DNA of 64,000 nt from Xenorhabdus ishibashii (GTDB lineage: Bacteria; Pseudomonadota; Gammaproteobacteria; Enterobacterales; Enterobacteriaceae): NCBI RefSeq assembly GCF_002632755.1, contig NZ_NJAK01000001.1, forward strand, positions 2,604,001 to 2,668,000, read 5' to 3'. The notes beneath the pieces were generated by a model. It was not told the DNA's origin. It worked only from the letters and a program-made list of their open reading frames with translations, and did no database searches. The translations under genes were made by a program, and so were the position numbers. Of the stretch, positions 47,287 to 63,611 are shown piece after piece (position 1 is the stretch's first letter; every line of letters starts with the position of its first letter).

Positions 47287-48807
47287 ATGACAAACCCACC
47301 TAATCCCCTGCACGCCACCTTACGGGCGCAACTGGACGCGTACCTCGATACGCTGGTCGCACAGGGAAAAAGCCCGCGCACACGGGAAAGCTACCGGGAA
47401 CGGCTGTTACCGTTCGTGGACTGGTGCGGACAGCGCAGCGTGCAGTATCCGGCACAGGTGACGCTGGTATTACTGGAAAGCTGGCAGCGCTACCTGCGGG
47501 CTTACCGCAAGGGCGATGGCCAGCCTTACAGCCATAACGGCCAGCGTGAACGGTTAATCGCCCTGCGGCTGTGGTTCCGCTGGCTACTGCAACGGCATCA
47601 CATCCTCTACAACCCGACCGAACAGATGGTGTTGCCGAAAGAAGAGAAGCGGCTGCCTGCCCAGATACTGAGTGAACGGGAAACCACGCAGGTGCTGGAC
47701 AGCCTTGACGACCAGAGCGTGCTGGGGCTGCGCAACCGGGTGATGCTGGAAGTGCTGTGGAGCAGCGGCCTCCGGCGCATGGAGCTGCGCCAGCTCCGGC
47801 GGGGTGATATCGACGTCGAACGCGGGGTCGTGGTGGTTAATCAGGGCAAAGGCCATAAAGACCGGGTGGTGCCCATCGGCGGTCGGGCACTGGGCTGGCT
47901 GACACGCTATCTGGTGCAGGTTCGGCCACAGTTGGCAGACAGCCATGACAGCGGTTACCTGTTTATCTCGCAAAAGGGCAGGCCGCTCAGTCTGGGGCAG
48001 ACGCCTGAGCCGGACACCGCGCCAGCCCCCGCTTCCCCTTTAGCCGCTGACCCTGCGTCCGGTGTGATGCCAAATGTCGTCTGTGAGTCCGGTGAGCATG
48101 GCGAGCTGCGCGTGTCAGTCGGCACACAGCAATGGTGCCTGCGCGGGCTGGGTGCGGTCAAAGCGGGCGCGGTTGCCATGAAGCTCAATGCGCAGGTGCT
48201 GGACAGGCAAAGCGGCGTGTTGTTCGCCGACGGGGTTGATCTGATGAGCGGGCGTTCACGCAACAGTTATGCCCGGCTGGCTGCCGCTGAGCTGGGACTG
48301 GCCGAAGGCGACCTCCGGCGGGCACTGGGGCAGGTGTTACTGGCGGTCGAACAATGGCAGCAGCAGCCGGCCAAAGGCACCGAACCCCGCGTACCTGAAA
48401 TGGGGATCGCAGAGCGGGAAGCGGCACTGGCCTTGTTGCAAGATCCGTACCTGACGGCCCGTATCACCACTGACTTGGCGGCCTGCGGTGTGGTCGGCGA
48501 ATCCACTAACTTGCTGGCCGGTTTTTTGGCGGCAGTGAGCCGAAAGTTACCCAAACCGTTAGCGGTACTTATCCAGAGCAGCAGCGCCGCCGGCAAATCC
48601 TCACTGATGGAGGCGGTGCTGAACCTGATCCCCGAGGAGGAGCGCATCCAGTACAGCGCCATGACCGGGCAAAGCCTGTTCTATCTGGGGGAAACCCATC
48701 TCCAGCATAAAATCCTCGCTATCGCCGAAGAAGAGGGGGTGCGGCAGGCGGCCTATGCGTTGAAGTTGTTGCAGTCGGATGGTGAACTGACGATGTGCAA
48801 GCACTAA
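47287..48807 (+). pseudogene. Recombinase-primase chimera from a collapsed element
   Basis: This 506-residue open frame joins recombinase residues 1-237 (up to GRPLSLG, losing His260, Arg263, His286 and Tyr295) to primase residues 372-637 (from QTPEPDTAPAPAS to SDGELTM), then ends MCKH. In intact elements the primase precedes the recombinase, so an in-order fusion recombinase-then-primase needs two tandem units and a deletion from one recombinase into the next unit's primase. The fusion stays in frame. Small differences from both A and B (KGDGQ for KADGQ, NPTEQ for NPAEQ, GTQQW for GTLQW) mark a third lineage. It cannot be an active recombinase. The P-loop is present but the rest of the ATPase is missing. 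Confidence 0.85.
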
Positions 48808-49004: not shown

Positions 49005-50039
49005 TTAATTAATAGTAAAAGCTTTTTGCATATTAAAATCCACTTCATCCCGCAGAACACGCCAGATAATCAGGGTCAGTTTGTTGGCTAAAACGATCGT
49101 GGCTTTCATAAACCCGCATCGGGCAATCAGTTTTCTCAACCATTCTCCCAGACAATCATCACGATTTTGGACACAGCGCATCACGGCACGAGCACCGTGG
49201 ATAATTAACGTTCGGAGATGACGGTTTCCATTTTTGCTCAGGGAAGACAGCCGGTTTTTTCCACCTGAACTGTGTTGTCGGGGAACCAGGCCACACCAGG
49301 CAGAAAGTTGCCGGCCATTGGCAAATTGGGGCGCACTGACTTCACTCACGAAGGCGGCTGCAATAAGAGGACCGACGCCGGGGATCGTGAGCCGATGGTG
49401 ATAACCACTTTGCTGACGAGAAAGTGCCGCTATTTCATTATCCATTTCATGAATGCGAATGTTCAGATCCCGTAGGTCTTCCCCCAAAGTCTGAAGCAAA
49501 CGTCGTCGTACAGAGGACAGCTCATGGCTCTCCTCTTCTAGAATCTCAGGCAGGTACTGTTGCAGTTTCTGAATACCAGCAGGAACGATCACCCCCTCCT
49601 CAGCGAGGAAAGCCCGAATCTGGTTGGCGAGTGCGGTACGTTGTTCCACCATGAGTTGTCGGGCACTGCGCAGTGCCTTGATATCTTGCTGTTCCACCGT
49701 CTTGACCGGAACAAAATGGAGACCGGGTCGGCAGGCCGTTTCGCCGATAGCCAGTGCATCATTGGCATCATTTTTTTGATGATGGCTAAAAGCGTTAACA
49801 TGCTGGGTCGGCACAAGCCTGATGATAAATCCCATCGCCTGAAGGGTTCTGCCCCAATAGTGAGAAGTTGCACAGGCCTCCATAGCAATGAGGGTTCCTG
49901 GCGAAAAAGTGCGCACAGTATCAAGCAATTTTTGCCGTGAAATTTTTCGGTTCGAGGCGACAGAACCGTCCGCCATCCAGACACAGACTTGAAAAACGTT
50001 TTTGGCGAGGTCAATGCCAATGACTTTAATCGCATTCAT
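49005..50039 (-). CDS. IS110-family transposase
   Basis: A 344-residue DEDD transposase. The N-terminal RuvC-like domain begins VIGIDLAKNVFQVCVW, followed by MEACATSHYW, QHVNAFSHHQKNDANDALAI (paired Asp) and a coiled middle. The C-terminal Transposase_20 domain has IPGVGPLIAAAFVSEV, FANGRQLSAWCGLVPRQHSSGGKNR (as two adjoining motifs, with the conserved Ser) and SSLSKNGNRHLRTLIIHGA. It appears intact. The element lies in the debris that ends the Rhs array. Confidence 0.93.
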   Translation of the reverse strand: MNAIKVIGIDLAKNVFQVCVWMADGSVASNRKISRQKLLDTVRTFSPGTLIAMEACATSHYWGRTLQAMGFIIRLVPTQHVNAFSHHQKNDANDALAIGETACRPGLHFVPVKTVEQQDIKALRSARQLMVEQRTALANQIRAFLAEEGVIVPAGIQKLQQYLPEILEEESHELSSVRRRLLQTLGEDLRDLNIRIHEMDNEIAALSRQQSGYHHRLTIPGVGPLIAAAFVSEVSAPQFANGRQLSAWCGLVPRQHSSGGKNRLSSLSKNGNRHLRTLIIHGARAVMRCVQNRDDCLGEWLRKLIARCGFMKATIVLANKLTLIIWRVLRDEVDFNMQKAFTIN

Positions 50040-50337: not shown

Positions 50338-50892
50338 CCGCTACAAATTAACCAGGCATTACTTGGGGCATCAAAAGAACATCCCGTGTTTTATGAAGAC
50401 GAAGTGGATATTCATTTCAATCCTAAAATAGGTTCAGACTGGTATCTTAAAGGCCAACAAAAACGGATTATCACACCGGGAAAGAACCAAAAATATTACT
50501 TTGCCGGCTGTTTTGATAGCCAAACGCACGAAATTTTTTACACGGGTTCTGGCAGGAAAAACTCTTATTTATTTATCAATATGTTAGAAGAGTTAAAAAG
50601 ATGTCACCGTCATGCAAAAACGCTGACCCTTATTTTGGATAATTACAGCATTCATAAAAGTCGGCTGGTCAAGGAATGGCTGAAGCAAAACCTGACAGTA
50701 AGATTGTTATTTCTTCCGGTTTATTCTCCTTGGCTGAATAAAATAGAGCGGCTATGGCAATCATTGCATGAAACCGTCACACGGAACCATTGTTGCCAAT
50801 ATATGTGGATGCTGATCAAAAGAGTTAAGTTTTTTTTAAATGCCGCTTCAGCAAATCAATGGAAAGGGATAGGAAATATGAAACTCTCATAA
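50338..50892 (+). pseudogene. IS630-family transposase remnant
   Basis: The open frame (reading QINQALLGASKEHPVFYEDEVDIHFNPKIG just before and through position 50386) has the IS630 DDE core: EDEVDIHFNPK (first acid), TLILDNYSIHKSRLVKEWL (Asp) and PVYSPWLNKIERLWQSLHE (Glu). The N-terminal helix-turn-helix half is absent and the IS3 remnant abuts it, so it is truncated. Confidence 0.85.
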
Positions 50893-50970
50893 TTATGAAA
50901 AGTTATTTAGCCAATATCAGAAATGCCGTTATCATTTATCAATATTTCATATACAAGATAGAACATTTTT

Positions 50971-50998
50971 TTGACAAAAAAACACATTAAATTAACAT
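50971..50998 (+). promoter_or_regulatory. Putative promoter of the RiPP-like operon
   Basis: TTGACA (50971-50976), a 16-bp spacer, then TAACAT (50993-50998), placed about 87 bp before the precursor ATG. A second TTGACA at 51039-51044 lies too close to the ribosome binding site to leave a normal leader. Confidence 0.45.
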
Positions 50999-51084
50999 GG
51001 GTTTTGTTCGCAACATAAAATGTAAAATGGTGCGTATATTGACATTTTTTACACTCTTACAAACATATATAGAAGGAAAATAAA

Positions 51085-51207
51085 ATGGATAAAGCTCAAG
51101 AATTGGAAATTGCTGTAGCCGAACTGAATGCAGAAAATTCCGATGCGGAAAATGAATTGTTGTTAGATATTACAGGTGTAGTTTCCAACAAAGAGTGGCA
51201 AGAATAA
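51085..51207 (+). CDS. RiPP precursor peptide candidate (40 residues)
   Basis: A 40-residue acidic peptide starting MDKAQELEIAVAELNAEN and ending LLLDITGVVSNKEWQE, with an AGAAGGAAAA ribosome binding site 4-13 bp upstream. It is the first gene of an operon with YcaO, TfuA, MNIO and carbamoyltransferase enzymes, and the only small peptide gene there. The N-terminal 25 residues look like an amphipathic, Glu/Ala-rich leader. The C-terminal 13-16 residues (DITGVVSNKEWQE) are a plausible core. It contains no Cys, Met (apart from the start) or His, so any sulfur in the product must be added by the enzymes. A strong hairpin follows at 51212-51234. It is too short for most automatic gene callers. Confidence 0.75.
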   Translation: MDKAQELEIAVAELNAENSDAENELLLDITGVVSNKEWQE

Positions 51208-51211
51208 TACT

Positions 51212-51234
51212 ACATGGCCGCGATGCGGCCATGT
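51212..51234 (+). terminator. Strong intercistronic hairpin after the precursor gene
   Basis: ACATGGCCGC and GCGGCCATGT form a perfect 10-bp stem with a GAT loop, 4 bp after the precursor stop. No T-run follows, so it is more likely an mRNA-stabilising or partial-termination hairpin that raises precursor transcript level above that of the enzymes. Confidence 0.65.
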
Positions 51235-51308
51235 CTAAATCACGACTAAAATTCTTAACCATATAATTTTAATTAAAATTAGTTTTTCATCTAAAAACAG
51301 ACTTTAAT

Positions 51309-52397
51309 ATGAGCAATATTATGGGTGATATTCAAGATGTTGAAACAATAACAATTAATGCATTAAAAGAACTTAATAGCTTTCTATTGGTGGATGTTCG
51401 GGAAAGCCATGAATTTGCTAATGGCACAATTCCCGGAGCATTAACCCTAGGACGAGGTTTTTTGGAAATTGAGCTAAAAAACAGACAAGTTGAACTAGAT
51501 CATCCAATTGTTCTGTTTTGTGCTAGTGGGCTTCGTTCAAAATACGCTGCATTGGGCTTAATTGCACTGAATTTCGTTAATATATATTCTCTTGAGGGTG
51601 GTTTCGAAGCATGGAAAGCAGGAGGTAATTCTGTAGAACAACCCTCCACAATCTTAAGCCAAACCGAGAAAAACCGATATGCGCGTCATATCTCCTTAAA
51701 AGATATTGGACTTCATGGACAATTAAAAATCATGAAGTCTAAAATACTGGTCATTGGAGCAGGGGGACTAGGTTCATCTTGTCTGCTTTATTTGACAGCC
51801 GCTGGGGTAGGTGAAATTGCCATTGTTGATCACGATATCGTCGATTTAGGTAACCTACAACGGCAAGTTATCCATAATGAAACGATGTTACAAAAGAAAA
51901 AAGTTGAATCAGCCCTTCATACGCTAAAAGCATTAAATTCTGGCATCAAAATAAAAATCATAGATGTTGCCATTAATACCAAGAATATTCAGCCTATTCT
52001 GGAGGATTACGATATAATCATCGATTGTACAGATAACTTTAATGCTCGTTATGCGATAAATGATGCTGCAGTAAAGGCAAATAAACCATTAATTTCTGCT
52101 GCCGTACAACGATTTACAGGCCATGTAATGGCACGTACTCAACCTTATTCTCCTTGCTACCGCTGTATCTACCCCGAAGCTCCACCAACAACTTTGTCCC
52201 CCTCATGCTCTGAGAATGGTGTAGTTGGAATTATTCCAGGTATTTTAGGATTACATCAGGCAAATGAAGCATTGAAAGTTATTCTAAATATAGGTGATAC
52301 ATTAGATGGAAAGCTATTGAAACTTGATTTGTTAAATAATAAATATCAATTATTAGTGACCAAGAGACGCACTGACTGTTTGTGTCAAAACCAATAA
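51309..52397 (+). CDS. Rhodanese-E1 (ThiF/MoeB-like) fusion
   Basis: A 362-residue protein with two domains. Residues about 12-108 are a rhodanese domain (LLVDVRESHEFANGTIPGA; active loop CASGLRS with Cys71), which carries a persulfide. Residues about 120-360 are an E1-like adenylyltransferase: the ATP-binding GAGGLG (150-155), DCTDNFNARY with Asp242, zinc-type cysteines Cys283/Cys286 and Cys357/Cys359, and another Cys at 300. MoeB/ThiF proteins adenylate the C-terminal GG of a sulfur carrier so that it can become a thiocarboxylate. The rhodanese is N-terminal, opposite to Uba4/MoeZ. The sulfur carrier gene follows 18 bp downstream, so this is a self-contained sulfur-activating pair. Confidence 0.88.
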   Translation: MSNIMGDIQDVETITINALKELNSFLLVDVRESHEFANGTIPGALTLGRGFLEIELKNRQVELDHPIVLFCASGLRSKYAALGLIALNFVNIYSLEGGFEAWKAGGNSVEQPSTILSQTEKNRYARHISLKDIGLHGQLKIMKSKILVIGAGGLGSSCLLYLTAAGVGEIAIVDHDIVDLGNLQRQVIHNETMLQKKKVESALHTLKALNSGIKIKIIDVAINTKNIQPILEDYDIIIDCTDNFNARYAINDAAVKANKPLISAAVQRFTGHVMARTQPYSPCYRCIYPEAPPTTLSPSCSENGVVGIIPGILGLHQANEALKVILNIGDTLDGKLLKLDLLNNKYQLLVTKRRTDCLCQNQ

Positions 52398-52415
52398 ATA
52401 ATTGAAGGAATTAAT

Positions 52416-52676
52416 ATGATTACTATATCATTTCCTGAATCTGTTAGCGGAAATAGACAGATTATTATCTCAGCAAATAATCTTTATGAAATATTAAAAG
52501 AGATGCAGGAGAAACATATCGATATTTTTTCTTTGATTGCGATATCTAAAGACGATAATCTTAAACTTAAACCTTTCGTTACTCTTTTTATAAATAATGT
52601 CATGTCAGTAGAGAGTAACCCTTCATTAAATGATGGTGACATTTTGTCTTTTGAAATAGCTATTTCAGGAGGATGA
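52416..52676 (+). CDS. ThiS/MoaD-like sulfur carrier protein
   Basis: An 86-residue ubiquitin-fold protein ending in AISGG, the C-terminal di-glycine required for thiocarboxylate formation. Other family features are FVTLFINNVMSVE in the middle strand and LNDGDILSFEIAISGG at the end, as in MoaD. It lies between the rhodanese-E1 gene and the unknown/MNIO genes, and its stop is one base before the next ATG (AGGAGGATGAAATGG). The proposed role is to hand sulfur to the YcaO/TfuA thioamidation step; this is inferred from context, since no molybdopterin or thiamine genes are near. Confidence 0.87.
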   Translation: MITISFPESVSGNRQIIISANNLYEILKEMQEKHIDIFSLIAISKDDNLKLKPFVTLFINNVMSVESNPSLNDGDILSFEIAISGG

Positions 52677-52677
52677 A

Positions 52678-53262
52678 ATGGATGCTAAGTTATTACAAAA
52701 AGCCTACGTATCACTACTATATAGTGATCATTGTTGTATTACAGGCGCGGAAAAAGAGTATCATTATATCCATTCTACAATGGATCACGACAGACTGGTA
52801 GTTGAGCGGGCTGCTCGTCGCAGAAATTTACGTACAGTACTTTATGCAGATATGCATTTTTCTCCACGCTTTTTTAGTAAGGATTTTTTCCTTAAGCTTG
52901 TAAATTTATATTGTGATTCGGATAGTTTCTGGAATTGGAATAGTAGAACATTGATTGAAAGCTTTTGCTACTTTGTTTATACAAATGCAGATTTGATGGA
53001 AGAAGAAAAAATTCCTTTTCTTATTGATGGTATTTATTCTGGCATTTCTACTGGAATGATAAACTCACCATGGAGTTCTACAATTTCCAGAAACAATGAA
53101 AAATCCATAACAGAAGAAATTAACTGTGATCGTTATTTTACTCTATCTAAATTAGATACAATAAATTCTCTCAAGGAAATAATTTTTAAAAATAAATTAG
53201 CTAAGCTTCGCTTTCATAACGAAAGTGGCAAAGTGGCATTATCCTGTCGGGAGGTTGTATGA
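52678..53262 (+). CDS. Unknown protein coupled to the MNIO enzyme
   Basis: A 194-residue protein without a family I recognise. It has a Cys-Cys pair early (SDHCCITG), a positively charged stretch (VVERAARRRNLR), aromatic-rich segments (DSFWNWNSRTL) and a Ser/Asn-rich middle. Its last four bases (ATGA) overlap the start of the MNIO gene, so the two are translated together. MNIO enzymes such as MbnB work with a partner protein (MbnC-like) that binds the precursor; by position this is the best candidate for such a partner or for a precursor-recognition protein. Confidence 0.6.
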   Translation: MDAKLLQKAYVSLLYSDHCCITGAEKEYHYIHSTMDHDRLVVERAARRRNLRTVLYADMHFSPRFFSKDFFLKLVNLYCDSDSFWNWNSRTLIESFCYFVYTNADLMEEEKIPFLIDGIYSGISTGMINSPWSSTISRNNEKSITEEINCDRYFTLSKLDTINSLKEIIFKNKLAKLRFHNESGKVALSCREVV

Positions 53263-54092
53263 ATGCACGAGTAGGGTTAGGAATTGATTATACACATAAT
53301 TATGGTTATGACTTAACTAAATTATTACAATTAGCGCAAAACGGAATTAGTCATTTATCTGTCGTGGCCATACCTAATGAGGATGTTGCACAAGCTTTTC
53401 GTAATAAATATCCTCAATATCCTATCATTCATCATTTTTCTGGAATGGAGCCAGCAGGTATTGATGGATTACGCTCTGATGTGCTTGTAAGGCAAAATGC
53501 CATTAGTGAGACTCTCCAGGCATACTGGTGTCTGGAAGATATCGGTATCTGGAATATTGGCCCTTACAACTTACCTTATTTTGCTGCGCCAGTACTTTGT
53601 GAATCCGTTCTTTCTATGGCAATTGAAGGTGTGAAAACGATTCAGTCTGTTTCCAGTATTCCTTTTTCTGCGGAAATACCTTCTTTCAGCATTGTTGCAG
53701 GAGAAATGGCTTTAGGTGAGTTTTTCCATCGGCTAGTTGATGCGACAGACTGTAATATTGTTTTAGACATCAGCCACGTATTTTCATATGCCATTTATTG
53801 TGATCTACAGCCACCGGATGTATTAGCTAGCCTTCCATTGACCTCAGTGAACGAAATTCATATTGCTGGGGGGAGTGTACACCCAAACCATTCATGGAGA
53901 TACCGTGATACACACTCTGAACCAATTGTTGATAGTGTTTTCCCACTGTTGGAACAGGCACTAGCTCAGTGCCCAAATCTGAAAGCTGTGACATATGAGT
54001 TAGGGGTGGGAATTACTCCAATTGTGATCCGTATAGATTTACAGAATATTGAAGATATTTGTCAACGAATGGCGTTTATCCCTTCATTCTGA
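53259..54092 (+). CDS. MNIO (DUF692) multinuclear non-heme iron oxidase
   Basis: A 277-residue TIM-barrel protein of the DUF692/MNIO family. Likely metal ligands are visible: His58/His59 (IIHHFSG), Glu139 (FSAEIPSF), Asp170 and His173 (IVLDISHVF), Glu199/His201 (VNEIHIAGG), Asp217/His219 with Glu221 (YRDTHSEPI) and Glu247 (VTYELG). MNIO enzymes use two or three iron ions and O2 to modify Cys, Asp or backbone atoms of RiPP precursors (for example MbnB, TglH, ChrH). This precursor has no Cys, so chemistry on Asp, Asn or another residue is more likely. It is slightly shorter than typical members, and divergent. Confidence 0.87.
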   Translation: MNARVGLGIDYTHNYGYDLTKLLQLAQNGISHLSVVAIPNEDVAQAFRNKYPQYPIIHHFSGMEPAGIDGLRSDVLVRQNAISETLQAYWCLEDIGIWNIGPYNLPYFAAPVLCESVLSMAIEGVKTIQSVSSIPFSAEIPSFSIVAGEMALGEFFHRLVDATDCNIVLDISHVFSYAIYCDLQPPDVLASLPLTSVNEIHIAGGSVHPNHSWRYRDTHSEPIVDSVFPLLEQALAQCPNLKAVTYELGVGITPIVIRIDLQNIEDICQRMAFIPSF

Positions 54093-54146
54093 ATAAACAA
54101 ACAGAGCTGATAATCAGGTTGTTGCAAATTTAAAGGTAATGAGTAT

Positions 54147-57100
54147 ATGGAAAATGATAAAACATCTATTCTTCTTATCGATAGTGCTAAAAAAAATCAG
54201 TTATCCAAGCTTAATGACGTTTCTCAACAGAATAATTTACATAATCATACCGCTAAAATCGCTAATATTTTATCACAAATACCTTTTCCATGGACAACAC
54301 AAGTCTCTCTGGATTTAATATCAGCCAGCTACTTGGATGCGTTTGAGCAAGGATATTCAGAGTTGCGCACTCATATATATGAGCGTTTTGGCATCTGCCC
54401 TATAGAAGCACATGCATACTCTCTGCCAGAGAATGAATATATTACAGATATTCATACCTCATTATCTACATTCCATGATAAAGCACTAGCTCCTTATGTT
54501 TTGGCTTCTGTAGGCCATGATTTTGGTCGCCAGCGTTTTCCTGGGTCATGCAGTGAAACTATTGGCGTAGGATTATTATGCCATAATGGCAGTATTCCAG
54601 GTATGACGCCTTTAGGATGGGGTAATATCGAGTTTTTGGTCAAAGAATGTGACTATTCCACCTACGACGAACAAGGGGCACTAACCACAACAAAAGGTAC
54701 CTCTGCGGCAGTAGTCTATCTCGCCAGTCTGGCTGGAAAACTTCATTCGTGGCTAAAAAGAAATCAAATGGTCTATGATCGCCATGCTTTACATGCAGCC
54801 ATGATTTGCATGAGCCAAGCATTTCAAGGTAGATATCTTTTTGATGATGTATCAGAGCAAAAATGTATGCCTCAAACATGGAGTATTCCTTTGAAGCGTT
54901 CGAAGGAAGCAGAAATACTGCTTACGCTTACTCCAAACACATCCGTCAGAAACAATCAAATTGCATTGGTCGTTTCTTATCAAGCGTCCATTGCCAGACA
55001 AACACGCCTGACAACCGTAATCAATGGTCAAGAAATTGTAGGGCAAAGAGGTACATTATTAATACCAGCTCATTTGCTTGAAAAATCCCCCCTTAATATT
55101 ACAGTATGCGTTGTAGGACGTCTCGATCATGTGACAGTAGCATGTCAGAACACACTGGTAATAAAATGTATTAGCTCGCAACTACTTGTCGCGCCTGACG
55201 ATGAAATTATTGTTGGTATCTCTGCAAGTCACGATGCTTCTGCTTGTGTGATGATTAACGGAAAAATTCGTTATGGAATTCAGCTTGAGCGTTTAACCCG
55301 TGTCAAACACGATGGAAGCCAATCCCTCAATACTACTTTAGCTGTAGATTATTGTCTGAATGCCGCTGGTTTAATGCGGGAAGATGTAAGCTGTTTTGCC
55401 TATAATATTCAATCAATGACTCCGGAGTATATCGGGCTAAATCAGCCTGTTTGTAGTACAGATTTTTCGTTGTTTGACCCCTTCTCTCCAGAGGCTGTAG
55501 TTGTTAGCCATCATCTGTGTCACGCATTTGCCGCTTGGTCGGGGTCAAAGTTTTCCAGAGGAAATGTAGTGGTAGCGGATGGTTCCGGAGGTAGTGTCGT
55601 AGGACAAAATGATTTACTCATCTCTGGGCAAGAGTTTTCTGAGTACTTAAATGCTGGACTTAAAGAGTATAAACCGGAATTGCATGTAGTTTCTCATTAT
55701 ACCTTTTGTGAAAATGGATATACGCTGCTAGCCCGTGAATACAGCCCATCATTTAATATTCGAACTGGAAGTCGCTCATTGGGCGAGGCTTATGCCTCTG
55801 TGAGCCAACTTGTTTTTAATTCTTGGCACGCTTCTGGAAAATTAATGGGGCTTGCACCTTATGGTATACCAAAATTTGCTGAGGAGATTGCGATTGAAAG
55901 CCCGCAGGGTATTTCTTTTGGTTATACTTGGAAGCAAAAATTTAGCAAGAAAACACTTAACGTGATGGATTACGCAGATCTGGCCGCTTCGGTACAACTC
56001 GTTCTGGAAAAAGGGATTTTTTCTCGCTTAGAGCATTACCACATAACTAATAATGAACCTCTTGTCATGACAGGAGGTGTTGCTCTAAATTCTGTAGTGA
56101 ACTATAAGGTGCGTCAGAACTTTCAATTACGTGATTTCTATTTATTCCCAGCTCAACATGATGCTGGTATTTCTATCGGTGCCGCTAATGCTGCTTATTA
56201 TAAAAGGCATAACCGAATTCTTAGTGATGCTTTTAATCACGATTATCTGGGAAAAGTTTACAGATATGAAGATATTGCCAGAGCCCTTAACTTATTTGCT
56301 GATAGGGTAATAGTGAAACCTATTGATACTGTTACACTAGCCGAACGGTTACATGCGGGACAGATCATTGGTTACTACTCCTGTACTAAAGGGTCTGAAT
56401 TTGGTCCACGTGCGTTGGGTGCCCGTTCAATACTAGCTAGCCCTTGCTCGATGGATACATGGAAATTCATCAATCGCTGGGTGAAGTTCCGTGAGGATTT
56501 TCGTCCTTTTGCGCCGATGGTTGCTACTGAGCACCTGAGTCGTTATTTCGAAGGTGAAGGTGACTATAAATATATGCTTGAAGTGCTGCCAGTTCGTCCT
56601 GAATACCGGGAGCAACTTGCCGCTATCGCGCATGTAGATGGTTCAGCACGTGTACAAACAGTGTCTGTCAATGATAATGAAGAAATCCATGCTTTGCTCT
56701 CCGCATTTGGCAAACTTTCTGGATTTCCCGTTTTACTGAATACATCGTTTAATGTTCGTGGAAAACCTATCGTAGAACGGGCAGAACAGGCAATCGAAAT
56801 GTTGCTTTCCACCCATATTGATGCGGTGGTATTCGGTGACTATATAGTCGAACTATTCGCTCCATCGTTTACTCCAGAAGTAGTTCCAGGATTGTTATGT
56901 TTGAGCCCTGGTTGTAGCTTAAAAAGCAGTCTAGAGAAAAATCAACTGCGTCATATAATAAGCCACGAATACCAAGGTAATAATCAAATTATTACTGCCT
57001 CGCTATATCAGGCTCTTTTACTATTAGTGAAGCAAATGTCTCTGGCGGATACCCAAGCTGTATATGATGAGTTAAGCCCTGAGCTAAGGAAAGCAGTGAT

Positions 57101-57179
57101 GCACTATGTTCGATTGAAATTTCTTAATATTGCACGTGATTTTACTGAGGAATTTGAGTGTGACGATCTCCATCACTGA
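54147..57179 (+). CDS. Subtilisin-like domain fused to NodU/CmcH carbamoyltransferase
   Basis: At 1010 residues this is far longer than usual NodU/TobZ carbamoyltransferases (about 550-600). Residues about 1-210 resemble a compact S8 subtilase: Asp12 in ILLIDSA, His34 in HTAKIANIL (compare HGTHVAG), VGHDFG with His124 at the usual oxyanion Asn place followed by FPGSCSETIGVG, and Ser186 in GTSAAV. Spacings (22, 90, 62) track those of subtilisin BPN' (32, 91, 66). A beta-rich linker follows. From about 352 the carbamoyltransferase begins (IIVGISASHDASACVM), with SHHLCHAFAA near 452, MTGGVALNSVVNYK, GPRALGARSI near 753 and LNTSFNVRGKPIV. The C-terminal enzyme should transfer carbamoyl from carbamoyl phosphate via an adenylate. 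The protease half may remove the leader or bind the peptide. Confidence 0.85.
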   Translation: MENDKTSILLIDSAKKNQLSKLNDVSQQNNLHNHTAKIANILSQIPFPWTTQVSLDLISASYLDAFEQGYSELRTHIYERFGICPIEAHAYSLPENEYITDIHTSLSTFHDKALAPYVLASVGHDFGRQRFPGSCSETIGVGLLCHNGSIPGMTPLGWGNIEFLVKECDYSTYDEQGALTTTKGTSAAVVYLASLAGKLHSWLKRNQMVYDRHALHAAMICMSQAFQGRYLFDDVSEQKCMPQTWSIPLKRSKEAEILLTLTPNTSVRNNQIALVVSYQASIARQTRLTTVINGQEIVGQRGTLLIPAHLLEKSPLNITVCVVGRLDHVTVACQNTLVIKCISSQLLVAPDDEIIVGISASHDASACVMINGKIRYGIQLERLTRVKHDGSQSLNTTLAVDYCLNAAGLMREDVSCFAYNIQSMTPEYIGLNQPVCSTDFSLFDPFSPEAVVVSHHLCHAFAAWSGSKFSRGNVVVADGSGGSVVGQNDLLISGQEFSEYLNAGLKEYKPELHVVSHYTFCENGYTLLAREYSPSFNIRTGSRSLGEAYASVSQLVFNSWHASGKLMGLAPYGIPKFAEEIAIESPQGISFGYTWKQKFSKKTLNVMDYADLAASVQLVLEKGIFSRLEHYHITNNEPLVMTGGVALNSVVNYKVRQNFQLRDFYLFPAQHDAGISIGAANAAYYKRHNRILSDAFNHDYLGKVYRYEDIARALNLFADRVIVKPIDTVTLAERLHAGQIIGYYSCTKGSEFGPRALGARSILASPCSMDTWKFINRWVKFREDFRPFAPMVATEHLSRYFEGEGDYKYMLEVLPVRPEYREQLAAIAHVDGSARVQTVSVNDNEEIHALLSAFGKLSGFPVLLNTSFNVRGKPIVERAEQAIEMLLSTHIDAVVFGDYIVELFAPSFTPEVVPGLLCLSPGCSLKSSLEKNQLRHIISHEYQGNNQIITASLYQALLLLVKQMSLADTQAVYDELSPELRKAVMHYVRLKFLNIARDFTEEFECDDLHH

Positions 57180-58314
57180 ATTAGGGTTTCGCCGTTACTC
57201 TACCCGAGAGGCACTGAAATTAATTTTACCATTACGTAAGAAACTGGGAATCTCGCGCTTAGCTTCTGTTGGTGAATTTGTGGATATTGCTGGCATAAGT
57301 ATAGTAAATGCAGTTCGTACTACATTGAAAAAAGGACAAATATCAACCACCCAAGGAAAAGGGCGAAATCTATATACAGCCACCTGTAGCGCATTAATGG
57401 AGGCCTATGAACGCCACTGTGCTTGTTGGTGTGATGATCTGATTGTTCACCAAAATACGCATTATTATGACCGTCTCATACAGCGGCAACTGGGATTTGA
57501 TCCAGAGTATGATATCAAAGACTGGATACCAGGATACGAGTTGCAAACTGGAAAAGAAATTTTATTACCTGCTGTAGAAGTACAGTTTCCTTATCATGGT
57601 TCGGATGCTCAACGGGTAAATATACACGCTCACACCTCGGGACTGGCGTGTGGTGGCACCTTAGAAGAAGCGATCTGTTTTGCTATATTAGAATCCTTTG
57701 AACGCAATATTACATCCCGATTTTACCAAAACTGTTTATCGAGTATTTGTGCAGATATTATAGATCCTGAAAGCATCAATTATCCGTCGACAAAAGCTTT
57801 ATGGCAATCGTTATCTGACAAAGGGTATGAAAGTTTCGCCTTACGTATCCACGGTACGATACCGACTTATTATGTAGCTTTATACGATCCAACCAATATG
57901 GGACCAAAATTTATGGTTGCCGGTTCCGCCTCTGGATTTACTGAAACACTAGCTCTGGATGCTGCACTAATGGAAGCAGTTCAGGGGCTAGTAGTCTGTT
58001 TACAGGCTTCACGAGAAGATTTAAGCCGTCAGCAGAAAAAGTATGATGATAAGAACTTCTTTAATCATTCACGTTTCTACGTACTGCGCGAATTATTTCG
58101 CAAGCATTATAAAATGGTGAATATATCGACTGAGCAGAATGTCCCGATAGCACTGGCTTCTGCTACCGAGTTTTTAATCCAAAAGCTAGCGGAGGAAGGA
58201 AAGGAACAGATTTATATCACGGATTTATCTCTGCCCGATGTACCTTTTCATACGGTAAAAGCTATTATTCCAGGGCTATTTGATTGGCATGTTAATCCGG
58301 GAAGGAGGAAATAA
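57160..58314 (+). CDS. YcaO-domain enzyme (peptide thioamidation)
   Basis: YcaO enzymes activate peptide backbone amides with ATP; with TfuA they install thioamides. Visible ATP-site motifs are STTQGKGRNLYTATCSALMEAYER (read as STTQGKG then SALMEAYERH) and SGLACGGTLEEAICFAILESFERN (GLACGGTLEEA, then ESFER). The C-terminus, FDWHVNPGRRK, lacks the PxPxP motif of azoline-forming YcaOs, in line with a non-azoline role. I chose the GTG at 57160, with TGAGG 9 bp upstream; it overlaps the previous gene by 20 bp. A TTG at 57130 would add 10 residues and has no good ribosome binding site. The tfuA gene follows 3 bp downstream. Confidence 0.9.
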   Translation: MTISITELGFRRYSTREALKLILPLRKKLGISRLASVGEFVDIAGISIVNAVRTTLKKGQISTTQGKGRNLYTATCSALMEAYERHCACWCDDLIVHQNTHYYDRLIQRQLGFDPEYDIKDWIPGYELQTGKEILLPAVEVQFPYHGSDAQRVNIHAHTSGLACGGTLEEAICFAILESFERNITSRFYQNCLSSICADIIDPESINYPSTKALWQSLSDKGYESFALRIHGTIPTYYVALYDPTNMGPKFMVAGSASGFTETLALDAALMEAVQGLVVCLQASREDLSRQQKKYDDKNFFNHSRFYVLRELFRKHYKMVNISTEQNVPIALASATEFLIQKLAEEGKEQIYITDLSLPDVPFHTVKAIIPGLFDWHVNPGRRK

Positions 58315-58317
58315 ATC

Positions 58318-58983
58318 GTGCTATTTGCTCGTAAACAAAAACCAGTTGTATTTGGTGGTTCTTCCTTACCCTGTGATCAGCGTTATGACGCAATAATTGA
58401 ATTTCGCCCACCAATCCAGACAGGAGATTTACTGGAGCTGTCAGGAAGTGGTCGGCCGGTTCTGATTACAGATGGCCTTTTTGGTAGCAATATGTCGATT
58501 ACTGTAGTGGAGTGCTTAAATTTTATCAACGCAGGAGGAATACTACTCGGTAGTTCCAGCATGGGAGCATTGCGCGCTGCAGACTGCTACATTCAAGGAA
58601 TGGTAGGAATAGGGCAAATATTTCAGGGATATCTATTCGGGTATTATCACTCAGATGCAGATGTGGCTCTGCGATATCACACGGATAATTATCAGGAAAT
58701 CACGCTCTCTTATGTGCATATAGAATATATTGCTTGCTATCTGATGGCAGAAGGGCAGATAAGTTCACTACAAAAACGTCAGATGATGGCTTTGGTACGA
58801 CAAATCATTTGGTACGAACGCTACATTGATCGGGTGATTGATGCCATGTTTAAGATTGCTCCACATTTAGACATAGCGCAGCTGTATTCTTTATTTAAAG
58901 ACGACACTATGCACCCTAAAAAACAAGATGCCAGATTAGCAATAGATTATTTAGTGAAATTTTATTTGGCCAAATGTGAGTAA
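58318..58983 (+). CDS. TfuA-like protein (YcaO partner)
   Basis: A 221-residue TfuA-family protein: DYDAIIEFRPPIQ-like entry (RYDAIIEFRPPIQTGD), VLITDGLFGS, GGILLGSSSMGALRAADCY, QGMVGIGQIF and SDADVALRYH. TfuA partners with YcaO in thioamide formation (shown for McrA thioglycine and thioviridamide-like peptides), probably helping to deliver sulfur. The start is a GTG with GGAAGGAGG upstream. It is encoded 3 bp after YcaO and 6 bp before the transporter. Confidence 0.9.
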   Translation: MLFARKQKPVVFGGSSLPCDQRYDAIIEFRPPIQTGDLLELSGSGRPVLITDGLFGSNMSITVVECLNFINAGGILLGSSSMGALRAADCYIQGMVGIGQIFQGYLFGYYHSDADVALRYHTDNYQEITLSYVHIEYIACYLMAEGQISSLQKRQMMALVRQIIWYERYIDRVIDAMFKIAPHLDIAQLYSLFKDDTMHPKKQDARLAIDYLVKFYLAKCE

Positions 58984-58989
58984 TAAGAA

Positions 58990-60312
58990 ATGAAAAATCA
59001 AAATTGGTTAAAAAACATAGGTTATCTAGATAGCATATCGCGTGCAATGCAATCAACATCAAATCAAATTAGTCATTTATTAGTAGGAAGCTTAGGTGGT
59101 ATGTTTGGTACAGCGGTTTCATTACGTGTTTCTATTGCATTCTATTCATCTCTCTTCCTTGAAGTCCCTTCTGGATTGCTGGCTGATAGATTAGGTCATT
59201 TTAAAACAGTTGCTTTAGGGAACTGGTTTAATGCTATTGCCCTGCTTGTATTGTACTGGTCACTCGCAACGGCAGATAATATCGATAATCAAATTACATT
59301 ACTTATTATCAGTTCTTTTTTAAGTGCCATCGCGATGTCTTTGATTTCTGGTGCTTATCAAGCAATGTTACAGGATTTGATTGATTATCAAATCATTAAA
59401 CATGGTGAAGAACGCACTCTACGTACAAAAGCACTTCTGCTTTCTCAACGATATGGTAAAGAAATTGTTTCTATCGTTCCTGTTCTTTTTTTATTGCTAT
59501 TATTAGTGCTTTACCGGACTATAGGACATGCTGAAATTATATTATTTATTCCAACTATAATGTTTATTGGTTTAGGAATATGGCTATGGTGTTTTCCTCA
59601 GTTGAACGGTATGCATGAAAATCTCGGAAAGCAGAACGCTCACATCAGGCGTAAAAGTACATTACGTCACTTTATTGTATATATGCGTGAATTATCACAT
59701 ACTCAATGTTTGATTTTTTTGAAACTTTCTATAGTAATAATTCTTCTAAATTTCTCTATGATTCATGTTCACACTTATCTCATGATTTCTGAATTCAGAG
59801 AATACAATATAATGCAGGTTGAAAGAGCTTATCTAATTCCTTTGTTTTTGTTTATTATATCATTTGATGTAGCTCATTATATTAAAGGTGTGATAGTTCC
59901 ACGTGTAGCCGCAAAGTTCTCAGATAATACGATGATTATGATTTCTTTCGTCAGTTTGATGATACTCTCAGGATTTTGTTATCTTCTTTATCTTTATTTC
60001 AATGGCATTTTAGCATTAATTTTGTATGTTTTGTTTTTTAGAACGACCGTGACTATTGGTCAAGACGTGGCGATCAGTAATTTTCTTGCCCGCTTACCTG
60101 AGGAAATCCGAGCTTTTTCTTTGAGTCTCGCAACAGGTACTGTAATTATATTATATGGTGCTTATTCTGTCTATTTAACCTTTGCTGGTATTGGTGCAGA
60201 GCCTGCACCATATATCTTGTTAGAAATAGCAGTGATTGCACTGATAGGAGGACTTTTGACGTTCTATATAAAAATCACCCCACAAATAGATACTGAAAAC
60301 CCTGCTTTGTAA
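58990..60312 (+). CDS. MFS-type membrane transporter (probable product exporter)
   Basis: A 440-residue protein rich in hydrophobic segments (roughly 11-12 likely membrane helices). It has the MFS-type loop motif LFLEVPSGLLADRLGHFKT after the second helix, a typical inner-membrane major facilitator feature. It is the last gene of the tight operon (6 bp after tfuA) and the only transporter there, so export of the modified peptide, or self-protection, is the natural role. Substrate specificity cannot be read from the sequence. Confidence 0.82.
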   Translation: MKNQNWLKNIGYLDSISRAMQSTSNQISHLLVGSLGGMFGTAVSLRVSIAFYSSLFLEVPSGLLADRLGHFKTVALGNWFNAIALLVLYWSLATADNIDNQITLLIISSFLSAIAMSLISGAYQAMLQDLIDYQIIKHGEERTLRTKALLLSQRYGKEIVSIVPVLFLLLLLVLYRTIGHAEIILFIPTIMFIGLGIWLWCFPQLNGMHENLGKQNAHIRRKSTLRHFIVYMRELSHTQCLIFLKLSIVIILLNFSMIHVHTYLMISEFREYNIMQVERAYLIPLFLFIISFDVAHYIKGVIVPRVAAKFSDNTMIMISFVSLMILSGFCYLLYLYFNGILALILYVLFFRTTVTIGQDVAISNFLARLPEEIRAFSLSLATGTVIILYGAYSVYLTFAGIGAEPAPYILLEIAVIALIGGLLTFYIKITPQIDTENPAL

Positions 60313-60509
60313 TCAAGAAATTAGCTATAATTTTTGACTATGTTTCAACTAATTTATAGAGTATGACAATAGCCTGTTCTTTATCGCCTTTAATATTTAA
60401 GTATATATTTTGTCTTGAGGAACTATTTTATTATGACTATTTATTTTACTAATTAATTTTACATAACTCTAGTAACCATCCTTAATTACGCAATTAATAG
60501 GAAAGTATT
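60313..60509. other. AT-rich gap between the transporter and acetyltransferase genes
   Basis: No gene and no strong terminator seen. It may hold a separate promoter for the two accessory genes downstream. Confidence 0.4.
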
Positions 60510-61070
60510 ATGCATAAAAGTAATTATATTACATCATTTAGTACCAAACAAATGGATATTCACTACATCAATGAAGAAATGGCTAATGCCTTTCAGAAAT
60601 ATTTGGTGAATAATAAAGATAGATTAGCACCATTTGAGCCATTAAGGACTTGCGAATATTACGAATTAAATGAAGTGAAAAAGCGTATTCGATCAACTGT
60701 GAATCTGCAAGAGGAAAATAAAGGAGTTTCACTTGTATTTACTCCCAAAAATTCATCAGATATAGTTGGAAATATCAATTTTACTAATTTCGTTTTTGGG
60801 GTTTTTCAAGCATGCCACCTTGGTTTCTCAATTGATACTAGTTTTGAGGGTAAAGGTGTGATGCGTGAAGTTTTAACAGAATCATTAAAACATATCAGAA
60901 ATAAATATCAACTACATCGCGTAATGGCTAATCACCTTCCAACTAATGATAGATGTGCTCATTTATTACAACGAATTGGGTTTATTAAAGAAGGTTATGC
61001 CAAATCATATCTTAAGATAAATGGAGTATGGCAAGATCATGTATTGAATTCTTTTGTATTTGAAGATTAA
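60510..61070 (+). CDS. GNAT acetyltransferase, RimJ/RimL-like
   Basis: A 186-residue N-acetyltransferase. It has the RimJ-type C-terminal signature HRVMANHLPTNDRCAHLLQRIGF, EGYAKSYLKINGVWQDH, with acetyl-CoA loop residues around FSIDTSFEGKGVMREVL. RimJ/RimL enzymes acetylate N-terminal amines; within or next to a RiPP operon such a gene may acetylate the peptide N-terminus exposed by leader removal, or give self-resistance. It has its own 197-bp upstream gap, so its link to the operon is less certain. It starts at an ATG with AGGAAAG upstream. Confidence 0.85.
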   Translation: MHKSNYITSFSTKQMDIHYINEEMANAFQKYLVNNKDRLAPFEPLRTCEYYELNEVKKRIRSTVNLQEENKGVSLVFTPKNSSDIVGNINFTNFVFGVFQACHLGFSIDTSFEGKGVMREVLTESLKHIRNKYQLHRVMANHLPTNDRCAHLLQRIGFIKEGYAKSYLKINGVWQDHVLNSFVFED

Positions 61071-61152
61071 TTATAATTATTTTTTCAATGTAAAAATCAC
61101 ACATGTTAGTTTTCCCAAAGCAATTAGTGTTTCTTAATTTTGGAGTGATAAA

Positions 61153-61779
61153 ATGTTAAAATCACAAAGTATTATTGTAATCGATGATTTTTATCATAAT
61201 CCCATTGAAATCAGAAAGCATGCACTTACACTTGATTATAAACAAAAAAATGGAGCTACGTATCCAGGAATGGAGGCTACATCTGAACGAAATTGGGAAA
61301 TAGTTAGAAATACTCTCATGTCATACATAAATGAAGATGTCAGTGCCCCCTGTCCTAAATCGGATGGATTTGCACAGGGAAAATTTCGCATTGCTGTTGC
61401 AAATGATAATAAAAAACGTCTAGATAATGTCCATGTAGATCAACAGAAATATTCAGGAATTATATATCTAACACCTAACGTTCTTTGCCAAGGAGGGGTT
61501 GCTTTTTATAAACATAAAAAAACAGGAGAGGTTTTTTTTAATAAAACTGTAATTCAAAGTAAAGGATTCCCTACCGTTGGCGATGATTTTCATAAGAGAG
61601 TTCTTTCGTACTTTAAGGATGATAATAATTGGGATAAAATTGGTGAAATTCCAATGCGATTTAATCGTGCTGTAATTATTATGGCCAGAGTGTTTCATGG
61701 ATCCACTGGAATTTTTGGTGACTCTATGGAAACTGGTAGATTAACTCAACATTTCGAATTTTATACCTATGATAAATAA
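61153..61779 (+). CDS. DUF6445-type putative Fe(II)/2-oxoglutarate oxygenase
   Basis: A 208-residue protein with a double-stranded beta-helix oxygenase pattern: HVD (His94, Asp96) followed by SGIIYLTP, GGVAFYKHKKTG, and the distal His182 (ARVFHGSTGIFGD) with Arg196 and His200 (GRLTQHFEFYTY), a candidate 2-oxoglutarate-binding Arg. I assign it to the DUF6445 group by pattern. Such enzymes hydroxylate or otherwise oxidise side chains. It lies 82 bp after the acetyltransferase with a GGAGTGATAAA ribosome binding site and the same AT-rich codon use as the operon. Confidence 0.7.
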   Translation: MLKSQSIIVIDDFYHNPIEIRKHALTLDYKQKNGATYPGMEATSERNWEIVRNTLMSYINEDVSAPCPKSDGFAQGKFRIAVANDNKKRLDNVHVDQQKYSGIIYLTPNVLCQGGVAFYKHKKTGEVFFNKTVIQSKGFPTVGDDFHKRVLSYFKDDNNWDKIGEIPMRFNRAVIIMARVFHGSTGIFGDSMETGRLTQHFEFYTYDK

Positions 61780-62693
61780 ATATTAGTGTGATTGAATTTT
61801 TGCATTATGAAAATATAATCAAATCATCGATGCTAATTTAATAAAAATGGTGTGTAGTGGAATGATAATCTTATAAAGACCAAAAGTATGTTGAGATTAT
61901 TAACAAAGGCTAAGTCATTTCCATCAAAAAATAATGGTGCTTTTTCCACTCCCCATCATTGAAAAAAATTTGACCTCGCTCAATTCAACCGATACAGTAT
62001 AACCTATTTATTAATGATTCATCGTCTGCAAGGATCATCCATTTGGTGGCGAAAAACTCCTGTAGCCTGAAAGGGAGAGCATAATTGCGGTACATCTGCA
62101 CACTTTTGGAAGTAGATATCGCCGGACACCTAACCTATCGTCTAGCGGTGAAAGTTTCCCGGTCTCGTTATGCACCGGCTTTTCATTCATGCAGAGCAAT
62201 AGCTCCTGCCATATTCACAATCTCAATTTATTCTGTACGATTTTTACCTATACGCTGATTAAATGCTCGATAAACGTCCCGCAAAGCGGCCAACGTCCAG
62301 AGCACGTAGAGCCTGACTCTACGGCCGATTTGAACCCCGCATTACTCAGTGAAACCACTCAAAACAGACCATTAACCGCCATTTTGTTTGATTGATAAAC
62401 GATCGTCTAATCGGATTTTCAACCCATTGCCTGATTGCAGGCTGATGCAGTAAAAATTAAGGAGAAATTCATCACGTCAAGATAATGAGGCGTTCATCCT
62501 GAATGAATCAGGCACTGAACGGGGAGTATGCCACCGCCGTGCTGAGCACGTAGCGAACTCCTGCAAAAACTTAACATAACCCTCGCTCTGCTACACATTG
62601 TCTGGCGAACCACGGAACGGTGAACCTGAACCGACATGCAGGGATTTGTTTAAAAATGAATAAAAACACGGCAAGTTAGCAGGAGAGGCGGGA
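61780..62693. other. About 900 bp without a supported gene, before the integrase
   Basis: The first 200 bp are AT-rich like the RiPP operon. From about 61970 the composition rises toward that of the integrase. Short open frames (such as 62189-62395) have no domain match. It probably contains decayed mobile-element sequence and the integrase promoter. Confidence 0.4.
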
Positions 62694-63611
62694 ATGGCGC
62701 AGAAATCAGCACGTTCAAAAATTGAGCGGTTCAGAAAAGAATTTATTACCCACGCCCGGCAAGCGGGTGGGAGTTTTGCCACGGTGGCCGATCGTGAGCG
62801 GATTGCCCGACAGTTTCTTGGCTTTCTGAAAGACAATGGCATCAGGCTCCGGCAGATGGACAGCCTGAAAACCCGACACATTGAGCGCTATATTGCTGAA
62901 CGCAAAGCCAGCCCTATCAGCCACCGAACCCTGCAAAATGAGATGTCGGCACTGCGCATGATTTTGGAGCGGGCCGGAAAACACAAGTTGGCATCCACCG
63001 ACAATGCGCGGCTGAACAACCGGGCGCTGGGAATTGCAAACACCCGCCGTAAGGGAACAAAAGCTGCTCTGACACCAGCCGCATTCAGAGAAATCTTTCA
63101 GCAGGTCGAACAAAAAGATCGGCGCGTGGCGGCAGTGATGCAACTGGCCTGGGTGCTGGGACTGCGTACCAAAGAAGCGGTAGAAGCCTATAAGTCCTTA
63201 GCGACCTGGAAAAAAGCGCTGGAAAACGGGCAGACGTCTGTGCGGGTGGTGTTTGGCACCAAAGGCGGGCATCCGAGGCCAACGGTGATACTGGATCGGG
63301 CAGCGCTGCAATACGCCATTGCCTACGCTGAGCGCGAAATGCATCCACACAGCGGCAAACTGATTGATAAACCGACGATCACGCAGGCCATAGATCGTTA
63401 CCGGTACGTTGTCCGCAGTGCCGGGCTGACGGGCAATAAAGCGCCACACAGTATGCGCTACCATTTTGCCCAGCAATCCGGCGAACATTACAAAGCTCAG
63501 GGATTCAGCACTCGAGAGGTGCTGGCCCTGGTCGCGATGGATTTAGGGCATGGCGATGGGCGCGGGCGCTATATCCGGCAGGTGTATTATCAGAACGACG
63601 AGGTTGAATAA
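62694..63611 (+). CDS. Integrase (Integrase_1-type tyrosine recombinase)
   Basis: A 305-residue recombinase unlike the Rhs-element one. The N-terminal domain (SKIERFRKEFITHARQAGGSFATVADRERIARQFLGFLKDNG as a region, residues 8-50) and RHIERYIAERKA match the phage-integrase N-terminal domain. The catalytic domain has LGLRTKEAVE (Arg), GTKGGHPR (Lys), HSMRYHFAQQ (His-Arg), DLGHGDGRGRYIRQVYY (His and Tyr). It is typical of integrative conjugative or genomic-island elements. Start: ATG with GGAGAGGCGGGA upstream. It may mark one end of the island that carries the RiPP operon. Confidence 0.85.
   Translation: MAQKSARSKIERFRKEFITHARQAGGSFATVADRERIARQFLGFLKDNGIRLRQMDSLKTRHIERYIAERKASPISHRTLQNEMSALRMILERAGKHKLASTDNARLNNRALGIANTRRKGTKAALTPAAFREIFQQVEQKDRRVAAVMQLAWVLGLRTKEAVEAYKSLATWKKALENGQTSVRVVFGTKGGHPRPTVILDRAALQYAIAYAEREMHPHSGKLIDKPTITQAIDRYRYVVRSAGLTGNKAPHSMRYHFAQQSGEHYKAQGFSTREVLALVAMDLGHGDGRGRYIRQVYYQNDEVE

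Follow-up and report, generated by a model that had tools for sequence, protein, structure and literature searches.

We describe a cluster of the ribosomally synthesised and post-translationally modified peptide (RiPP) type in a 64,000-nucleotide stretch of the 3.86-Mb genome of Xenorhabdus ishibashii (contig NZ_NJAK01000001.1), the whole stretch being called the window below. An original prediction, made from the DNA letters, had named a short peptide gene followed by genes for a rhodanese-E1 protein, a sulfur carrier, an MNIO with a coupled partner, a subtilase-carbamoyltransferase fusion, YcaO, TfuA, an MFS transporter, a GNAT acetyltransferase and a DUF6445 protein. All of these are present as open reading frames (ORFs) on the forward strand (table 1), and Pfam and NCBIfam profiles back the family names given to the E1-rhodanese, MNIO, carbamoyltransferase, YcaO, TfuA, MFS, GNAT and DUF6445 products. 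The cluster has a G+C content of 37.3% vs 48.7% for the window. Taken together, its genes point with good probability to a thioamide/homocitrulline RiPP cluster of the std type, expanded by a putative sulfur relay, a putative acetylation and a putative further oxidation.

Table 1. Features of the cluster and its surroundings (positions within the window).
Feature	Position	Strand	Basis or remark
Precursor peptide, StdA homologue, 40 aa	51085..51207	+	ORF; relatives with the same tail
Predicted core, Ser34-Asn35-Lys36	51184-51192		part of precursor
Predicted follower, EWQE	51193-51204		part of precursor
Stem-loop, 10-bp stem	51212..51234	+	RNA fold; directly 3' of precursor stop codon
Rhodanese-E1 fusion, 362 aa; predicted to load sulfur and activate the carrier	51309..52397	+	PF00899 1.1e-74; PF00581 1.4e-16
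Predicted sulfur carrier, 86 aa, ends ISGG	52416..52676	+	weak profile matches; between E1 and partner genes
MNIO partner, StdD homologue, 194 aa	52678..53262	+	homology to other clusters
MNIO, StdE homologue	53259..54092	+	PF05114 8.2e-23
Subtilase-carbamoyltransferase fusion, StdF homologue, 1010 aa	54147..57179	+	PF16861 4.9e-59; PF02543 5.6e-25
YcaO, StdG homologue	57130..58314	+	PF02624 1.2e-43
TfuA, StdH homologue, GTG start	58318..58983	+	PF07812 1.3e-23
MFS transporter, predicted exporter	58990..60312	+	PF07690 1.5e-9
GNAT acetyltransferase, RimJ-like	60510..61070	+	PF13302 1.1e-14
DUF6445 protein, predicted iron (2-oxoglutarate type) oxygenase	61153..61779	+	PF20043 1.2e-16
Block common to a second genome of the genus (G010, L026)	50908..62285		blastn, 98.6% identity, 11.4 kb
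Phage-integrase-family gene	47287-48807		upstream of cluster
IS110-type transposase gene	49005-50039		upstream of cluster
DDE_3 transposase piece	50386-50892		upstream of cluster
Integrase gene	62694-63611		downstream of cluster

The std cluster was described for Streptomyces thermodiastaticus JCM 4840 (Hebron et al., bioRxiv, May 2026; PMC13174530). According to its main text, YcaO-TfuA thioamidates Asn in vitro, the peptidase-carbamoyltransferase makes homocitrulline from Lys and removes EWQE, and the partner-MNIO pair hydroxylates the homocitrulline twice. Locus L008 of our comparison comes from the same strain and has counterparts of the window genes D, E, F, G and H in unchanged order, with identities of 39% over 71 residues (D), 41% (E), 47% in the carbamoyltransferase and 29% in the peptidase (F), 30% (G) and 36% (H). 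The window precursor ends exactly in SNKEWQE (residues 34-40), its YcaO and TfuA genes are adjacent and homologous to the L008 pair, its partner-MNIO pair is recognised by PF05114 together with homology of the partner to L008, and its fusion joins a NodU-like carbamoyltransferase, assigned by Pfam, to a peptidase assigned by alignment alone. Because homologues of the std YcaO-TfuA, peptidase-carbamoyltransferase and partner-MNIO thus accompany the SNKEWQE tail, the predicted core chemistry of the window cluster (thioamide formation, carbamoylation, follower removal and hydroxylation) is well supported. The original prediction of a thioamidated, oxidised and carbamoylated peptide therefore has a counterpart in a homologous cluster that does exactly this in vitro on the same tail, whereas its claim of an undescribed enzyme set and a new RiPP class does not hold: the class was already described in 2026, and the window cluster is an expanded variant of it. 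The cluster may itself already be among the entries of Table S2 of that report, since its text counts 97 orthologues of StdA, spread over Pseudomonadota, Actinomycetota and Myxococcota.

The comparison covered ten clusters, namely the window and those of Dickeya undicola (L003), Pseudomonas fluorescens (L004), a Piscinibacter plasmid (L024), and Deltaproteobacteria (L010) and Sandaracinus (L013) metagenome-assembled genomes, together with Streptomyces barringtoniae (L005), Streptacidiphilus pinicola (L007), S. thermodiastaticus (L008) and S. eurythermus (L011), of which L008 and L011 are closely related and thus not independent. The count leaves out L006 and L009 (a related carbamoyltransferase with no match to other window genes in the flank examined), L012 and L014-L017 (carbamoyltransferase matches only) and L026 (almost identical to the window cluster). 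All 10/10 clusters have the partner, MNIO, carbamoyltransferase, YcaO and TfuA, and the peptide gene, on whose conservation the original prediction had staked itself, is kept beside the homologous clusters. The window precursor, MDKAQELEIAVAELNAENSDAENELLLDITGVVSNKEWQE, was searched for in about 5.8 billion proteins by a method that depends on shared words and similar length, so that more distant precursors escape; it returned seven relatives at E<=10, every one of 40 residues and ending in SNKEWQE. This uniformity, along with the gene order from precursor to GNAT kept in Dickeya, indicates that the cluster is more than a chance assembly. The same tail closes the precursors at L003, L004, L005, L008, L011 and L013, that of L007 ends in SNKDWSE, and a full-text literature search for SNKEWQE or NKEWQE led to PMC13174530 only. 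Ser-x-Lys of the core is common to all ten clusters while the leaders vary, and the core Ser is present in 10/10 precursors compared, that of L010 having been chosen by eye among ORFs, so that its Ser-x-Lys is partly circular. The text of PMC13174530 likewise gives the Ser of SNK as 100% conserved in its StdA set and reports no change of it by the published enzymes. As to the stem-loop behind the precursor gene, strong hairpins stand at the same position in L003, L004 and L008 and none in L013; it may stabilise the 3' end of the precursor transcript or act as a weak terminator. The Sandaracinus cluster holds two tandem precursor genes (L013:6749-7175), with the tails SNKEWQE and SAKEWQD.

The partner protein had no match in Pfam or NCBIfam, and the pairing claimed for it is upheld by gene order instead: a homologue stands before the MNIO in 9/9 other clusters, with identities of 38-62% in L003 and L004, 38-41% over 71-76 residues in Streptomyces and Streptacidiphilus, and about 26% in L010, L013 and L024. 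Ten MNIO residues (H58, H59, E93, D94, D170, H173, H201, D217, H219 and E247) are invariant in all ten aligned sequences. YcaO has the McrA-glycine thioamidation YcaO as its best NCBIfam match, under the cut-off, and its TTG start at 57130 is uncertain in that homology starts near residue 14. The MFS protein is 68% identical to that of the Dickeya cluster and 37% to that of the Pseudomonas cluster. A comparison of the MNIO with plasmids matched 82 records, two of which were inspected, H1 (L024) and H4 (L025); H4 has YcaO and MNIO genes in a stretch whose annotation lists neither TfuA nor carbamoyltransferase, and was not counted as a std cluster. In a search of viral contigs for YcaO relatives, four stretches fit a pattern and none was confirmed.

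The fusion protein comprises a subtilase-like part at about residues 1-340 and a carbamoyltransferase at about 350-1010, and it is 96% identical to a fusion protein from Xenorhabdus griffiniae. Family scans gave the window protein no subtilase match, and the subtilase half of the predicted fusion is borne out by alignment: PF00082 is present in 12 of 120 listed fusion homologues, with which His34 and Ser186 (GTS motif) of the window align, placing the Asp-His-Ser triad at Asp12, His34 and Ser186. Of 59 aligned N-domains (the rows being redundant), 56 retain His34, His124 and Ser186; His124 occupies what we take to be the position of the subtilase oxyanion Asn. This alignment omits P0050, L009 and L006, whose N-domain piece is too short, as well as listed fusion homologues below 850 residues or past P0056; P0055 lies on a contig as long as that of L010 and is probably the same protein, and the like holds for P0007 and L003, and the subtilase-like part of L024 was entered as a separate row. 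The proteins devoid of the catalytic His and Ser are those of L010, its likely duplicate P0055, and L024, and the candidate precursor tails at these loci, SGKVDPNG (L010) and SNKARQKPW (L024), retain Ser-x-Lys and have lost EWQE. Thus 8/8 clusters whose precursor has the SNK[ED]W[QS]E motif retain His34 and Ser186, and 2/2 clusters lacking the motif have lost both residues. In this natural experiment on follower cleavage the joint loss suggests that the subtilase domain may cut off the follower; it is suggestive only, because in L010 and L024 alike the carbamoyltransferase is joined to YcaO and the two could have a common ancestor. The YcaO fusion alone was rejected as the cause of the residue loss, given that P0037, P0038, P0042 and P0044 carry YcaO yet keep the GTS motif. 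On the Piscinibacter plasmid (L024:9203-10250) the carbamoyltransferase appears to start ahead of its annotated position (10196), the frame continuing upstream through a degenerate subtilase-like part. Around std-like carbamoyltransferases outside the count, Nostoc (L006:9986-11974) and Streptomyces chumphonensis (L009:9635-11995) have a common, different neighbourhood, in which L009 encodes PhyH, acetaldehyde dehydrogenase, BioF-like and MaoC proteins and L006 their homologues.

The two genes behind the precursor are candidates for a dedicated sulfur relay. The rhodanese-E1 protein scores 458.6 bits with NF006444 of NCBIfam, above the cut-off of 449, and the Cys71 of its rhodanese loop CASGLR is invariant in 4/4 aligned sequences. 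For the 86-residue product, the Gly-Gly end named by the original prediction is confirmed and recurs in 3/3 homologues, and the family match is faint (TIGR01687, E=0.057; the ThiS/MoaD structure 4n6e_B, E=0.11 with a three-sequence profile), further PDB matches being 3dwg_C at E=0.4 and two unrelated proteins at E 0.30-0.31. E1-rhodanese genes occur in five of the ten clusters (window, L003, L004, L005, L024), and carrier-like proteins in three (window, L003, L004), all with E1-rhodanese. The std YcaO-TfuA assay, as its text gives it, used Na2S as the sulfur source (PMC13174530), and in some archaea sulfur-metabolism and rhodanese-domain genes are described near ycaO-tfuA (PMC5589413). Xenorhabdus-type clusters likely carry their own sulfur relay, and the origin of the thioamide sulfur would be directly testable with a cluster that apparently encodes its own donor.

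At the other end of the cluster stand two candidate finishing genes. The GNAT protein is RimJ-like only, scoring 150.4 bits with the RimJ model NF008072 and not reaching its cut-off of 190, and its closest PDB match is RimJ (3igr, E 9.1e-36); relatives lie in or beside 9/10 clusters. A second carbamoyltransferase gene (L007:16752-19055) stands about 2 kb past the GNAT of the Streptacidiphilus cluster. In the DUF6445 family His94-x-Asp96, His182 and Arg196 are invariant in 21/21 members, an H-x-D...H...R arrangement that we take to be the pattern of 2-oxoglutarate oxygenases. DUF6445 genes occur in the clusters of the window, L004, L010, L013 and L024 (5/10), and the relatives P0141 and P0142 are on contigs equal in size to those bearing the fusion relatives P0017 and P0027. 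Near four of the five clusters without DUF6445 another likely oxygenase was found: the GNAT is followed by a PF05118 gene in L003 and adjoined by a JmjC_2 gene in L008, and relatives of the latter occur in L011 and, ahead of the precursor, in L007, so that a predicted non-MNIO iron oxygenase lies in or beside 9/10 clusters. The order in Pseudomonas is precursor, GNAT, E1, DUF6445, carrier and D to I, the GNAT and DUF6445 genes standing ahead of the carrier and reading in the same direction, and the TfuA, DUF6445 and GNAT genes of Piscinibacter follow one another with overlapping ends and starts. A capped N-terminal Ser is plausible because the core Ser is invariant and not reported as altered by the published enzymes; acetylation and an extra oxidation are plausible finishing steps. 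A literature search found no mention of DUF6445, and the main text of PMC13174530 does not contain the terms GNAT, acetyltransferase, rhodanese, sulfur carrier, ThiF, JmjC, DUF6445 or Xenorhabdus, from which its supplements may differ.

From the gene content, the exact motif, homology, conservation and the co-loss obtained here, we propose the following pathway. The rhodanese domain would load sulfur in persulfide form; the E1 domain would activate the Gly-Gly end of the 86-residue carrier, whose thiocarboxylate would supply TfuA and YcaO for the thioamidation of Asn35. After this step the fusion protein would carbamoylate Lys36 to homocitrulline and its subtilase domain remove EWQE, upon which the partner-MNIO pair would hydroxylate the homocitrulline twice. 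A protease would then cut off the leader up to the invariant Ser, which the RimJ-like GNAT would acetylate, the DUF6445 protein could add a further hydroxyl, and the MFS protein would export the product. Thioamidation (with Na2S), carbamoylation, EWQE removal and double hydroxylation are demonstrated for the Streptomyces enzymes only (PMC13174530), and we infer the remainder. Tentatively, and with much less confidence than in the assignment to the std type, the mature std-type product could be a capped pseudo-tripeptide freed of leader and follower, N-acetyl-Ser-Asn(thioamide)-dihydroxyhomocitrulline with one more hydroxyl, its oxygenase having been recruited separately per lineage from three unrelated families (DUF6445, Asp/Asn hydroxylase and JmjC), and with the persulfide-to-thiocarboxylate relay as the natural sulfur donor in Xenorhabdus-type clusters. 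The std publication, as far as its main text goes, used Na2S and leaves the mature product, leader protease and activity undefined; the window and its relatives supply candidates in the sulfur relay, the GNAT and the extra oxygenase. Elsewhere, a TAP-like alpha/beta hydrolase gene (PF08386; L005:15911-17506) adjoins the GNAT of S. barringtoniae and is a possible leader-removing peptidase, and a C39-peptidase ABC transporter gene (L010:9905-12610) behind the Deltaproteobacteria cluster is a possible leader-cutting exporter.

Several observations weigh against the expanded std-type reading. The window proteins resemble the tested std proteins only modestly (29-47% identity), and the activities of the window enzymes are predicted from such homology. 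The identity of the carrier depends on the faint matches given above, and in S. thermodiastaticus (L008) the flank examined shows neither an E1-rhodanese nor a carrier homologue, from which it follows that a dedicated relay is not needed in every cluster. In the fusion protein, the column of the subtilase Asp holds Ser or Ala in L005, L008, L011 and L013, with Asp one residue later, and Gly in L007 with no adjoining Asp. Profile searches with DUF6445 found no PDB relative and yielded no oxygenase family match: one of 21 members reached E 0.05-0.1 with each of two 2-oxoglutarate oxygenase families, a comparison with PF13640 proteins gave an hhalign probability of 1.7, which is noise level, and the best PHROGs match is annotated as a minor coat protein. 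No GNAT was found in L010, and no extra oxygenase in L005 by tblastn and a scan of six ORFs.

Four less probable explanations stand beside this reading. MccE acetylates microcin C inside the producer as self-protection, and the GNAT could act similarly on a product that is simply the published std end product, with DUF6445 as an accessory; the 22 PDB proteins matched by the GNAT include MccE as a weak hit (3r95, E 0.00037), and the GNAT gene is on the opposite strand in Streptomyces and Sandaracinus, as is possible for a resistance gene. RimJ, an N-terminal acetyltransferase, is nevertheless far closer, and in Pseudomonas the GNAT and DUF6445 genes sit among biosynthetic ones, and we regard this explanation as possible though clearly not favoured. 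Somewhat less probable still is that the modified C-terminal residues are only a carrier-bound stage, and that the peptide gives off a small molecule made from dihydroxyhomocitrulline, as with pearlins, whose MNIO is described as acting at the C-terminal residue of a scaffold peptide (PMC12452194). That Ser-x-Lys alone of the core is kept in all ten clusters while leaders differ would suit such a release, whereas family scans of the window genes named no peptide-aminoacyl ligase-like gene, and the invariant Ser and the Asn thioamide speak for a peptide product. It is comparably unlikely that the E1-rhodanese and the 86-residue protein belong to some other pathway, such as cofactor synthesis, and stand in the cluster by coincidence, with sulfide as the natural donor: the published reaction runs on Na2S (PMC13174530) and five of the ten clusters have no E1 homologue in the flank examined, yet both genes lie between precursor and partner in the Xenorhabdus-type and Dickeya clusters and inside the block in Pseudomonas.

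The last alternative, in which the cluster rides on a mobile element and is silent or decaying, concerns the genomic context. In the second genome, G010, each of the 11 cluster proteins has a full-length counterpart of 97-100% identity (for DUF6445 the match spans 207/208 residues), the flanks of the shared block differ from those of the window, and the ORFs ahead of it look by eye like what we presume to be a P4-type integrase and primase. Among 30 genomes of the genus the full-length fusion occurs in two (its own and G010), some carbamoyltransferase match in 11, and DUF6445 in three, the third being weak (5.7e-5). In order and class samples the fusion protein was found at E<=1e-100 in its own genome only (1/394 and 1/369), and the DNA of the 11-kb region had no match among known plasmids. 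The patchy spread in the genus and the different surroundings in G010 make the block probably mobile cargo. Although these surroundings and the adjoining transposase and integrase genes would also suit a passenger, the frames are open and all the proteins are preserved in G010, which makes silence or decay very improbable.

Among known systems, crocagin differs from the std type in its core and its enzymes. It is named in the text of PMC13174530 as the one other well-characterized RiPP with a carbamoyltransferase. Thioamitides, the thioviridamide-like RiPPs, share with the window the YcaO-TfuA thioamidation of a RiPP precursor, and differ in core sequence and in that the texts consulted mention no MNIO or carbamoyltransferase for them (PMC8120280, PMC6511847). 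Pearlins and other MNIO RiPPs resemble it in an MNIO with a partner acting on a C-terminal residue; their MNIOs target other residues, and the text on them contains neither the term carbamoyl nor SNKEWQE (PMC12452194). The YcaO-TfuA system for McrA thioglycine in methanogens uses the same pair, to which the window pair has its best NCBIfam matches, under the cut-off, but its substrate is described as a large enzyme subunit rather than a short peptide (PMC5589413). Closest is the std cluster itself, which has in common with the window the SNKEWQE precursor, YcaO-TfuA, the peptidase-carbamoyltransferase fusion, the partner-MNIO pair and an MFS protein, and, at L008, a GNAT gene beside the cluster. 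The window differs from it in the unrelated-looking leader of its 40-residue precursor and in the added E1-rhodanese, carrier-like and DUF6445 proteins, a JmjC_2 gene standing beside the GNAT at the std locus where the window has DUF6445.

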